Origin: a virus
Length of the DNA stretch: 46,232 bases
Virus record (IMG/VR): IMGVR_UViG_3300049927_000099
Coordinates: 1-46,232 of that record
Strand: one strand, 5' to 3'
Numbering within the stretch: the first letter of the stretch is position 1; every line of letters begins with the position of its first letter. A program made the translations under genes and the position numbers. Positions 3,038 to 15,127 of this stretch are shown here, one piece after another. A model generated the notes under the pieces. It saw only the letters and a list, made by a program, of their open reading frames with translations. It was not told where the DNA came from and made no database searches.

Positions 3038-3366
3038 CCGACATCTCCCACGCCCGCCCCGCAGTCCGGGACCTGACCAAGCTCCTCCGCACCCGCCGCA
3101 CCTACGGTCGCCCCTGCTACATCAAGCGCAACACCCGGCACGCCGCGCTCATCGTGCCGCACCTGCGCGACGGAGTGACCGGCCCGTACTCGTGGCTGCG
3201 GACCTTTCACCGCGCGACCATCGACGACGCACTCCAGCAGGGCTTCGTGATCCTCGGCGGGCTCGGCCCGGTCCCGGAGCACGACGCCGCGTTGGGCGCC
3301 TGGTACGGGGACATGGGACACCAGGGGCGCACCATCGCCCTGCCGCTGCGAGGCGGTGCCCGATGA
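3034..3366 (+). CDS. Hypothetical protein
   Basis: 110 residues, ATG overlapping the upstream stop. The product is basic at its N-terminus (Lys-Leu-Leu-Arg-Thr-Arg-Arg) and has no obvious membrane or metal site. It directly precedes the nuclease gene with another 4-base overlap, so it is co-expressed with the recombination genes. No family recognised. Confidence 0.5.
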   Translation: MTDISHARPAVRDLTKLLRTRRTYGRPCYIKRNTRHAALIVPHLRDGVTGPYSWLRTFHRATIDDALQQGFVILGGLGPVPEHDAALGAWYGDMGHQGRTIALPLRGGAR

Positions 3367-4280
3367 CCGACACCGTGCAGGCCGGGGCACCAGCCCCGGC
3401 CGCCGGCCGCCGCCGCAAGGCCGCCGCCCCCGCACCCACCGGCACCGACCGCATCCCCCAACCCTCCGCCGGCTGGTACCGCATCCCCGGCACCGACACC
3501 AAACTCCGCCGCGTCACCACCATCCTCGGCCAAGGCTTCCCCAAGCCACAGCTCGTGTTCTGGGCAGCGAACATCACCGCCGCCGCCGCGTTCGAGACCC
3601 TCCCCACCCTTGTAAGCGCCTCGCTGTGGCCCGCCGAACGGGAAGCCGCCTACGACTGGCTCCGCAAGGGTCACATCCGGAAGAAGGAAGAGCGCGGCGA
3701 CATCGGCCGCGCCGTCCACGACCTCGTCGAGGCCCACGTGCTGGGCACCCCGGTGCCGGAGGAGCTCCTCAACGACGAGGAGATGGCCCCGTTCCTGGAG
3801 AACTTCCTCCGCTTCGTCAAGGAGTGGCAGATCACCTTCGAGGCATCGGAGATGACCGTCGGGAACCTGACCGACGGGTGGGCGGGGAAGCTCGACTACC
3901 TCTTCCGATCCCCGCTCATCGCCCGCCTGCTCAAGGTCGCCGCGGACACGCTGTTCATCGGCGACACGAAGACCGGCGGGGAGCTCGACGAGAAGGGCGT
4001 GTACCCGGAGGCCGGCGCGCAGATGGCTGCGTACCGGCGGGCTGAGGTGGCGTGGCTGCGGGACGGATCGCAGATCAAGATGCCCGCCATCCACCCGGTG
4101 GGGATCGTGCTTCACCTGCGGCCGGAGGGATACCGGCCGATGCCGCTGCTGTGCGGTGACGACGTGTACGAGGTGTTCCTCCACGTCAAGCAGGTCGCCG
4201 AGTTCCAGCGGGTGCTGTCCAAAACCATCGTCGGCGAGGCCCTGAGCCTGCCCGCCACCACCGAGGAGAGGGCCGCCTGA
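3363..4280 (+). CDS. RecB-like PD-(D/E)XK exonuclease
   Basis: 305 residues. The nuclease core is visible: Gly-Arg-Ala-Val-His-Asp-Leu (His119), Gly-Lys-Leu-Asp (Asp178), Gly-Asp-Thr-Lys-Thr-Gly (Asp201, Lys203) and Gln-Met-Ala-Ala-Tyr (Gln220, Tyr224). That is the order of the Cas4/RecB branch of the PD-(D/E)XK superfamily, which resects DNA ends with Mg2+. Residues 1-30 are Ala/Pro/Arg-rich and probably disordered. In phages such genes supply a 5'-3' exonuclease for recombination, usually beside an annealing protein; here the next gene is the phiC31 gp3-like protein. The start is the ATG overlapping the previous stop. Confidence 0.82.
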   Translation: MTDTVQAGAPAPAAGRRRKAAAPAPTGTDRIPQPSAGWYRIPGTDTKLRRVTTILGQGFPKPQLVFWAANITAAAAFETLPTLVSASLWPAEREAAYDWLRKGHIRKKEERGDIGRAVHDLVEAHVLGTPVPEELLNDEEMAPFLENFLRFVKEWQITFEASEMTVGNLTDGWAGKLDYLFRSPLIARLLKVAADTLFIGDTKTGGELDEKGVYPEAGAQMAAYRRAEVAWLRDGSQIKMPAIHPVGIVLHLRPEGYRPMPLLCGDDVYEVFLHVKQVAEFQRVLSKTIVGEALSLPATTEERAA

Positions 4281-9742: not shown

Positions 9743-11644
9743 GTGACCAACGTCATCCGCCACCCGAGCAGTGACCCGGCGGACGATGACGGCCTCAACT
9801 GGGAAGCCACCCCCACCGAGGCCGCACCCGCCCGCGGCTTCGAACGCATCCCCCCGCAAGACCTCGACGCCGAACAGTGCGCCCTCGGCGGCATGCTCCT
9901 CTCCCACGACGTCATCGCAGCTGTGGCCGACGTCCTCGGCGGCGGCACCGACTTCTACCGCCCCGCCCACACCACCATCTACACCGCGATCCTCCGCCTC
10001 CACGCCCAAGGCGAACCCGCCGACCCCATCACCGTCGCCGCGGAACTCGGCAGGACCGGCGACCTCCAACGCGCAGGCGGCATGCCCTACCTGCACGGCC
10101 TCGTCAACGCCGTCCCCACCGCGGCGAACGCCGAGTACTACGCCGGCATCGTCCAAGAGCAGGCAACCCTCCGGCGCCTCGTCGAAGCCGGCACCGCCAT
10201 CGCCGCCATGGGCTACGCCGCGGACGGCGACGTCAACGACATCGTCGAGCACGCCCGCAAGACCTTCGAGGGTGCCGCCACCCTCACCGCCCACGGGCCC
10301 GCCCACCTCGCCGCCGCCATCCTCGACTGGGATGAGTTCTTCGCCACGGACTTCGGATCCGTGCGGCTGTTGCCCGGCCGGCTCATGGCGCCCGGCCAGC
10401 AGATCACCCTCGTCGGCGATGGCAAGGCGGGGAAGTCCCTGTTCGCTCAGGAGTGGATGTGGCGTATGGCCACCGGCCGCCCGTTCCTTGGCGACGACGC
10501 AGCGGACCCACTTCCGATCCTGTACCTCGACGCGGAGAACGGCCGCGAGCAGATCCAGGAGCGCATCTTCTCCTTCGGCGGCGGGCCCGGCGGCATGGGC
10601 CTCCTGCGCTACGCCAGCTTCCCCCCGGTACGGCCCCTCGACACGGCCGGTGGTGGCGCGGACCTCATGAACCTCGTCCAGGCCACCGGTGCGCAGCTCG
10701 TCGTCATCGACACCGTCAGCCGCTTCATCTCCGGTGCGGAGAACGACGCGGACACATGGCTGAGCCTCTACAGGCACACGCTCATGCCGCTGAAGTCCGC
10801 GGGCATCGCGTCCGTCCGTCTCGACCACTTCGGGAAGGACAAGGACCGCGGCGGGCGCGGCTCCTCCGCCAAGAACCAGGACGTCGACCACGTGTGGGAG
10901 CTCTCCGCCCAAGGCGGCGGGATGCTGTCGCTGCGCCGCACCCACACCCGCACCGGCATCGGCCCCGACGAGTTCGCGATCCGCCGCGAGGCGCACCGCT
11001 CCGGCGACGCGTGGGTGCCCGGCCACACCCGGCACGTCGCCGTCACGTTCGAGCACGTCGAGCAGAACCTGCCCGGCACGCCGGAGTACATCATCATGAA
11101 GCTCGACGGCGCCGGGGTCCCCCGCGATGCCGGCCGGGACCGGCTGCGCACCGAGTGCCTGCGCCTGAACATCGCGGCCAGCAACGGGACCCTCTCCGAG
11201 GTCGCGAAGATCCGGAAAGCACGCTCCGGACAGGTCCCGGGACAGGTCGGGGACAGGTCTGACCTGCGGGTTTCTCAGACGCCCCTCCCGGAGCCCGCAC
11301 CTCGGCAGCCCAACGCCCCCCAAAACCAGGGCAATACCGGACAGGACACCCCTCAAAACCTGTCCCCGGACCTGTCCCCGACCAACCAGCCCCAACCTGT
11401 CCTGATCTTGGGGACAGGTACAGAAGAAACCCCAGATCAGACCTGTCCCGGACAGGTCGAGGACAGGTCAGGACAGGCCGTAGCCGGACCTGTCCCCATG
11501 TCCACCCCACGAAGTGGGGGACAGGGGGACGGACAGCCCGCCCCGCTCTGCGTCCTCTGCGACCAACCCATCACCAACGCCGAATGGGTCAACCGCGGCT
11601 ACGACCGACACCACGTATGCCCCACCGGCTTCACCAAGACCTGA
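9743..11644 (+). CDS. Replicative helicase: DnaB N-domain fused to RepA-like ATPase
   Basis: 633 residues. Residues 35-150 match the DnaB N-terminal domain (Asp-Leu-Asp-Ala-Glu-Gln near 41-46, Gly-Gly-Met-Leu-Leu, then Phe-Tyr-Arg-Pro-Ala-His). Residues 205-455 are a RecA/RepA-type ATPase with Walker A Gly-Asp-Gly-Lys-Ala-Gly-Lys-Ser (225-232) and Walker B Leu-Val-Val-Ile-Asp (Asp323), closer to plasmid RepA hexameric helicases than to DnaB. Residues 496-600 are a Gln/Pro/Asp-rich linker encoded by the repeat array at 11228-11538. The C-terminus ends in Cys-Val-Leu-Cys ... His-His-Val-Cys, a probable zinc knuckle. It should unwind the replication fork and may recognise the origin within its own gene. 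Confidence 0.83.
   Translation: MTNVIRHPSSDPADDDGLNWEATPTEAAPARGFERIPPQDLDAEQCALGGMLLSHDVIAAVADVLGGGTDFYRPAHTTIYTAILRLHAQGEPADPITVAAELGRTGDLQRAGGMPYLHGLVNAVPTAANAEYYAGIVQEQATLRRLVEAGTAIAAMGYAADGDVNDIVEHARKTFEGAATLTAHGPAHLAAAILDWDEFFATDFGSVRLLPGRLMAPGQQITLVGDGKAGKSLFAQEWMWRMATGRPFLGDDAADPLPILYLDAENGREQIQERIFSFGGGPGGMGLLRYASFPPVRPLDTAGGGADLMNLVQATGAQLVVIDTVSRFISGAENDADTWLSLYRHTLMPLKSAGIASVRLDHFGKDKDRGGRGSSAKNQDVDHVWELSAQGGGMLSLRRTHTRTGIGPDEFAIRREAHRSGDAWVPGHTRHVAVTFEHVEQNLPGTPEYIIMKLDGAGVPRDAGRDRLRTECLRLNIAASNGTLSEVAKIRKARSGQVPGQVGDRSDLRVSQTPLPEPAPRQPNAPQNQGNTGQDTPQNLSPDLSPTNQPQPVLILGTGTEETPDQTCPGQVEDRSGQAVAGPVPMSTPRSGGQGDGQPAPLCVLCDQPITNAEWVNRGYDRHHVCPTGFTKT
11228..11538 (+). repeat. Iteron-like GGACAGGT array inside helicase gene (candidate origin)
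   Basis: Exact GGACAGGT copies start at 11228, 11240, 11251, 11412, 11450 and 11461. Exact inverted copies (ACCTGTCC) start at 11358, 11370, 11395, 11441 and 11488. One-mismatch copies start at 11339, 11471 and 11519, and a weaker copy at 11531. Neighbouring copies are often 11-12 bases apart, about one helical turn. At 11441-11457 two copies form the palindrome ACCTGTCCCGGACAGGT. The copies fall in different reading frames and both orientations, so the DNA rather than the protein is conserved. Iterons near or within rep genes are typical of plasmid and phage origins; origin function here is inferred. Confidence 0.75.
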
Positions 11645-14565: not shown

Positions 14566-14663
14566 GCCGTTACCGCACCCGCCCCCACCACTGGCTACTC
14601 ACCGCCATCGGCGTAGCCCTCGTGATCCTCACCGCATGGCAACTCGGAGGAACCGCACGATGA
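14562..14663 (+). CDS. 33-residue membrane microprotein
   Basis: GTG 14562 overlaps the previous TGA and the TGA overlaps the next ATG. A basic N-terminus (Arg-Tyr-Arg-Thr-Arg) is followed by a Leu/Ala/Ile/Val helix at residues 12-28. The perfect fit into the overlap chain argues that it is translated. Function unknown. Confidence 0.45.
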   Translation: MSRYRTRPHHWLLTAIGVALVILTAWQLGGTAR

Positions 14664-15127
14664 AAAACCGCCAACCCACCCCCGGCACACCCCTCACCGC
14701 CCGCGAACTTCAAGTCCTCGCCGGCCTCGCACGCGGCAAAGACAACACGGTCATCGGCCAGGACCTCGGCCTGAAACGCCTCACCATCAAAACCCACATC
14801 GCCCGCATCAGCCGCAAAGCCCAAGCCGGACACACCAGCGGCATCATCGGCCACGCCTACCGCACCGGGCTGCTCCGTGGTCTGGCCCCCGAACCACGAC
14901 CACCCGTCTACCTCACCGGCCGCGAACGGCAGGTACTCGACGGCATGGCCCGCGGACAGTCCAACGCCGAGATCGGGCGGGAACTCTTCCTCGCCGAAGA
15001 GACGATCAAGAGCCACGCCCAACGCCTCTTCCGCAAACTCCAAGCCCACGGCCGCACCCACGCCGTGGCCTTGGGCTACCAGCACGGGTACCTCAAGGCG
15101 CCCGCCGAGACGGCAGGCAGACCGTGA
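14660..15127 (+). CDS. Tandem LuxR/GerE helix-turn-helix protein
   Basis: 155 residues containing two GerE-type DNA-binding domains: residues 10-70 (Leu-Thr-Ala-Arg-Glu-Leu-Gln-Val-Leu ... Ile-Lys-Thr-His) and 83-145 (Leu-Thr-Gly-Arg-Glu-Arg-Gln-Val-Leu ... Ile-Lys-Ser-His). No receiver or ligand-binding domain is present. LuxR domains normally dimerise to bind palindromes; a tandem pair could bind DNA as a monomer. It is the third host-style regulator in this stretch. Confidence 0.8.
   Translation: MKNRQPTPGTPLTARELQVLAGLARGKDNTVIGQDLGLKRLTIKTHIARISRKAQAGHTSGIIGHAYRTGLLRGLAPEPRPPVYLTGRERQVLDGMARGQSNAEIGRELFLAEETIKSHAQRLFRKLQAHGRTHAVALGYQHGYLKAPAETAGRP

Follow-up and report, generated by a model that had tools for sequence, protein, structure and literature searches.

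The window (the whole stretch of DNA analysed, 46,232 bases) is a virus record in its entirety, the closest sequenced relative of which, by helicase gene, is Streptomyces phage mu1/6; judged by its sequence, the source is an actinophage related to that phage. The features considered here lie in a gene predicted to encode an initiator-type replicative helicase (Table 1). Profile searches of the PDB with the helicase returned DnaB and RepA, the RecA core matching 1g8y, regulatory protein RepA, with an E value of 3.6e-8. The core is followed by a small helix-turn-helix (HTH) domain, whose codons end at 11227, one base ahead of the first copy of an array of short repeats. Comparison of the modelled HTH with solved folds gave weak matches and no clear family (best Z 3.9, Pseudomonas Fur). 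Elsewhere in the window, positions 14636-15127 encode a small protein resembling two tandem LuxR/sigma-factor-type HTH domains. The initial annotation of this DNA had taken the linker encoded by the array to be disordered, and the AlphaFold2 model agrees, with pLDDT <50 at residues 501-596; the tail beyond it is modelled with greater confidence and, from its cysteines, may bind zinc. Searches for plasmid relatives returned mostly matches to the DnaB N-domain of plasmid helicases when the full-length protein was the query, and two weak records only with the ATPase and HTH.

Table 1. Features of the helicase gene and of the repeat array that it contains, in window positions.
Feature	Position	Strand	Remarks
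Initiator-type replicative helicase gene (predicted), 633 aa	9743..11644	+	45% identical to mu1/6 'DNA helicase' gp21
DnaB N-terminal domain, aa 37-139	9851..10159	+	PF00772, E 9.8e-30
RecA-fold ATPase core, aa 196-440, AAA_25	10328..11062	+	Pfam; profile matches RSF1010 RepA (1g8y)
Three-helix HTH domain, aa 447-495, proposed repeat reader	11081..11227	+	AlphaFold2 model; co-variation
Codons of residues 464-469 (G-R-D-R-L-R)	11132..11149	+	465/466/469 match repeat word across relatives
Exact copies, direct	11228, 11240, 11251, 11412, 11450, 11461	+	
Exact copies, inverted	11358, 11370, 11395, 11441, 11488	-	
One-mismatch copies	11339, 11471, 11519		
Left repeat cluster	11228..11258	+	Three direct copies (11228, 11240, 11251)
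One-mismatch copy GGACAGGA	11339..11346	+	
Three inverted copies	11358..11402	-	11358, 11370, 11395
Least GC-rich array stretch	about 11390..11432		Just 5' of box; up to 47% AT
Single direct copy	11412..11419	+	
Box CAGATCA	11433..11439	+	CAGGTCA in most relatives; constant while repeat word changes
Palindrome GACCTGTCCCGGACAGGTC	11440..11458		Two opposed copies
Right cluster	11461..11495		11461 (+), 11471 (+, one mismatch), 11488 (-)
Terminal hairpin CCCCAC-GAA-GTGGGG	11505..11519		72 nt after box; stem in most relatives, paired bases vary
Trailing weaker copies GGACAGGG and GGACAGCC	11519..11539	+	Starting at 11519 and 11532
CxxC...C zinc-ribbon-like C-terminal tail, aa 600-630	11540..11632	+	pLDDT about 77-92

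The 11 exact copies of GGACAGGT/ACCTGTCC span 11228-11495, and with three one-mismatch copies and one weaker copy make up an array at 11228-11539, as originally counted. The copies occupy all three frames on both strands with unlike spacers, which bears out the claim that they run in several frames and both directions, and the 17-base palindrome described there, ACCTGTCC-C-GGACAGGT at 11441-11457, was found to extend to 19 bases. The whole-genome scan that the initial annotation had called for revealed no exact copy beyond the array in the 46,232 bases, and in this the repeats are unlike a dispersed operator. Words with one mismatch are present in ordinary number across the window (53, with 48 expected); what is anomalous is the clustering of the copies. 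Within the 420 nt that follow the HTH codons, the top-scoring 8-mer reached 11.6, where dinucleotide shuffles gave 3.2 +/- 0.6 (z 13.6). GC skew, proposed in the initial annotation as another place to look for an origin signal, showed no turn at the array and a cumulative minimum near 30 kb; skew is uninformative here because in phages it follows gene direction.

Two further elements accompany the repeats. The CAGGTCA-type box is nearly constant across the repeat classes described below, in coding and non-coding arrays alike, and in relatives is followed, mostly at 53-73 nt, by a hairpin whose paired positions are CG, TA, AT or GC depending on the locus. Since the best stem was chosen at each locus, the comparison with shuffles, and not pair counts alone, constitutes the test: stems average 8.0 pairs, whereas shuffles and upstream coding DNA both give 4.4. 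The search was restricted to a fixed distance past the box, as a search without this limit frequently selected opposed repeats, and at this distance five loci (L040, L041, L044, L045 and L090) have short stems only. No strong AT-rich element was found in the array (maximum 47% AT, at 11390-11429); the stretch just 5' of the box stands against surroundings of about 30-35% AT in a genome of 70% GC, and the equivalent stretch in relatives has a mean AT content of 41%. This stretch is at best a weak candidate for an unwinding region.

About 90 loci encoding 70 distinct helicases were gathered for comparison, of which 66 were classified by repeat word. The initial annotation had called for a search for arrays at the same place in related genomes; one follows the HTH in almost every relative, albeit with a differing word. 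The arrays score clearly above shuffles in most relatives; a minority of G+C-rich arrays lie just 1-3 standard deviations above them, so that for these the argument rests on position and layout. At Streptomyces and Kitasatospora loci the array lies within coding sequence, between the HTH and the tail, with the words ACGTTTCC, ACGTTCCC, (GG or CC)TTCCC, ACCTCCCC, ACCTGCCC and, in the window, ACCTGTCC; the ACCTGCCC array is that of mu1/6 (L013), at the matching place after the HTH of the homologous helicase. Brachybacterium (L047) likewise carries its GGTGACC repeats in coding DNA. One locus (L067) has no array, and its helicase sequence departs from those of relatives near the position of the first repeat (around 11440-11569 of that locus), which on sequence grounds would fit a rearranged or misjoined contig. 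Two loci that end before the array position (L079, L086) were left out, and one from Nocardia (L048), with repeats after the gene but an unaligned HTH, was left unclassified. The DnaB-like helicase genes of phages P1312, Bromden and Vibrio 1.076.O have no array nearby, and the arrangement is therefore no general feature of phage DnaB. A search of the literature on mu1/6 and on actinophage origins found nothing on the array.

In more distant actinobacterial relatives, translation of the helicase ends shortly past the HTH, leaving the array in non-coding DNA downstream. This applies to loci from Nonomuraea (L038, L039, L042), Streptosporangium (L040), Paractinoplanes (L043), Mycobacterium (L044, L045) and Nocardia (L048), and to a viral locus (L090). 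Most of the non-coding arrays share one layout, namely repeats, a CAGGTCA-type box, repeats and a C-rich/G-rich hairpin. Since the same layout occurs in non-coding DNA, translation of the array is a variant and not the reason for the repeats, and the proposal that selection acts on the DNA is upheld by the retention of this architecture, untranslated, in distant relatives. In phage MinS1 (L093), ACCTCGTCC repeats lie directly 3' of the helicase gene under an annotated hypothetical protein (3063-3257), which may be no gene. MinS1 is listed as a Microcystis phage; its Lsr2-family gene and GC-rich sequence are odd for such a phage and more actinophage-like. At another locus (L091) a CTGTCCC array was observed further downstream, beyond another reading frame that looks HTH-like and contains a GRP motif; both features fall within 3448-4250 of that locus.

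The repeat word was then compared with the protein sequence. Residues 465, 466 and 469, at the start of the second HTH helix, correspond to the word at every one of the 66 loci, the word classes and the three residues having been picked after the arrays had been inspected. The code NRR is associated with CGTTTCC (18/18), NRK with CGTTCCC (10/10), NP with SSTTCCC (21/21), SP with CCTCCCC (3/3) and R with a CTG-type word (12/12), and there are two single-case codes, F (GGTGACC) and NA (CGTTCCG). At all 28 GNR loci, K or R at residue 469 pairs with C or T in the word; the Actinosynnema locus (L041), which has GNR..K within an otherwise mu1/6-like helix, carries CGTTCCC. A separate genome sample provided eight loci, four of them new: three of the new loci, L102 (SP), L103 (NP) and L107 (RD), show the predicted word class, while the fourth (L108) combines an unseen code, GAR, with a new word, GTGTCCC, mostly beyond the stop codon.

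Other parts of the protein follow the word less closely. Nearest-neighbour prediction of the word was correct for 61/66 loci from the HTH and for 62/66 from residues 464-470, compared with 34/66 from the N domain, 33/66 from the ATPase and 21/55 from the tail. Linker columns 498-597 score highly for the trivial reason that the repeats encode the linker; outside it, the top co-varying columns in the embedded-array set all belong to the HTH (466, 481, 468, 475, 486 and 469, NMI 0.42-0.62), whereas no column exceeds 0.31 in the N domain or ATPase, or 0.24 in the tail. None of the 132 pairs with ATPase identity >85% but different words shares residues 465/466/469. Mapped onto the ATPase tree, the word requires 19 changes, as does the residue code, and the tail control residues, among those listed, do not follow the word. 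Independent contrasts on supported branches all run in the same direction (5/5, 4/4 and 4/4), although at 4-5 per class they are too few for a sign test to reach p 0.05. Together these data suggest that the HTH, as a putative C-terminal DNA-binding domain, may read the repeats.

The pairing of HTH and array is illustrated by two loci, L018 and L033, which differ in word and are 94% identical in the ATPase, 90% in the N domain and 86% in the tail but 43% in the HTH. Judged from the sequences, an HTH-array cassette seems to have been exchanged, which suggests that HTH and array function as a pair; the tail, which adjoins the array as closely as the HTH does, on its other side, does not track the word. 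Part of the joint inheritance of HTH and array could nonetheless reflect transfer as one DNA segment. A more speculative extension, which we regard as possible but somewhat doubtful, is that actinophages swap the HTH with matching repeats while ATPase and tail stay unchanged, creating origins made orthogonal by a residue-to-base code under competition between co-resident prophages, or under pressure from satellites or defences aimed at the origin.

Comparable arrangements have been described. In staphylococcal islands, the SaPI Rep and SCC Cch2 proteins are initiator helicases with short repeats immediately 3' of their genes, which are recognised by the C-terminal domains of the respective proteins (PMC7581432). 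Those helicases are of DUF927 or Primase_Cterm/D5 type, whereas that of the window combines PF00772 and AAA_25 with a RepA-type RecA core; the window also differs in that its repeats are embedded in a gene, that the phage is of high GC content, and that a hairpin and the constant CAGGTCA box accompany the array. In phage lambda and other lambdoid phages, gene O contains the ori, with iterons mid-gene, extra iterons adding residues to the protein (PMC7466680). The window array similarly lies inside the coding sequence of a protein that would be the initiator. Lambda O is an initiator that recruits host DnaB and not itself a helicase, whereas in the window it is the helicase gene that contains the repeats. 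By analogy, the window system would work like SaPI Rep/Cch2 and is placed like the lambda ori, but its helicase type and division of labour set it apart from both. The RecA core resembles that of RSF1010 RepA, but in RSF1010 the iterons are bound by a separate protein, RepC, whereas the window helicase has its own HTH. The Streptomyces theta plasmids pWTY27, pFP1 and pFP11 carry short RepA-bound repeats beside rep in the replication locus, those of pWTY27, whose RepA has 522 aa, being in both orientations (GTGGGAAC/TTCCCAC) (PMC3583192). The window shares with these plasmids the position next to a replication gene and, with pWTY27, the two orientations. The Streptomyces linear plasmid pSLA2, described as phage-like, has iterons inside a replication gene beside a helicase gene (rep1/rep2), the repeats being in the DNA-binding protein gene rep1 and not in that for the helicase. 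The term 'plasmid-like' originally applied to the window therefore suits the mechanism, given SaPI and the iteron plasmids, but not the element itself, which is a phage.

The initial annotation had placed an origin or control array inside the gene of its possible binder, and three comparisons lend support, short of proof, to that reading: the array occupies the same position in almost all relatives, it is kept when untranslated, and the HTH of the helicase co-varies with the repeat word far more strongly than does any other part of the protein. The array is probably an intragenic replication origin, at which the helicase of a temperate Streptomyces phage would bind the repeats with its own HTH, and gather and load there without a separate initiator. 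Several helicase molecules would be brought together by binding of their HTH domains (aa 447-495), assembly and loading would proceed at the array, and the DNA would open near the box, where AT content peaks; physical binding, strand opening, loading and origin function are here all inferred from sequence comparison. Recruitment of primase is a property of the DnaB N-domain and could be provided by the equivalent domain of the window helicase. Most likely, the coding form came about when the reading frame was extended across a non-coding origin immediately 3' of the gene, and the residues that the array encodes are tolerated as a disordered linker.

The co-variation suggests recognition and not its purpose, and the helicase might bind the array for control (autoregulation, copy number, handcuffing or partition) with the origin located elsewhere; the parS sites of some phages are, moreover, direct-repeat arrays (PMC7157519). 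We consider this unlikely, given that the array is inside or after the gene and not at its promoter, that the proposed binding domain belongs to a replicative helicase, that no ParA/ParB was noticed among the ORFs examined (an inspection short of a systematic scan), and that the SaPI arrays after helicase genes are origins (PMC7581432). A clt-type array for conjugation (TraB sites) was considered and dropped: there is no tra gene among the genes examined and the gene containing the array is a helicase.

Adjacency could also yield joint inheritance if another DNA-binding protein of phage or host read the repeats and the helicase HTH merely travelled along, and the constancy of the box suggests that a second factor may bind too. 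The failure of the tail beyond the array to track the word, the pairing at residue 469 and the Actinosynnema helix argue against such a reader, which appears very improbable. That the linker is disordered, and such DNA tolerable, would be compatible with a meaningless local repeat expansion. An expansion is difficult to reconcile with both orientations, all frames and unlike spacers, or with a layout that persists in non-coding DNA and among widely diverged relatives; conservation contradicts it unless arrays arose independently in each lineage, and it can be virtually dismissed.

The best reading of these sequence comparisons is that of a self-recognising initiator helicase with its origin beside or inside its own gene. 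The mu1/6 record marks no origin and that of MinS1 has a 'hypothetical protein' over the repeats; the array predicts replication origins for a large set of phages of Streptomyces and of other actinobacteria. About seven naturally occurring repeat classes, with HTH residues to match, make a protein-DNA recognition code directly testable, and what is apparently one origin, occurring in coding and non-coding form, looks like a case in which a DNA element was absorbed by a reading frame.
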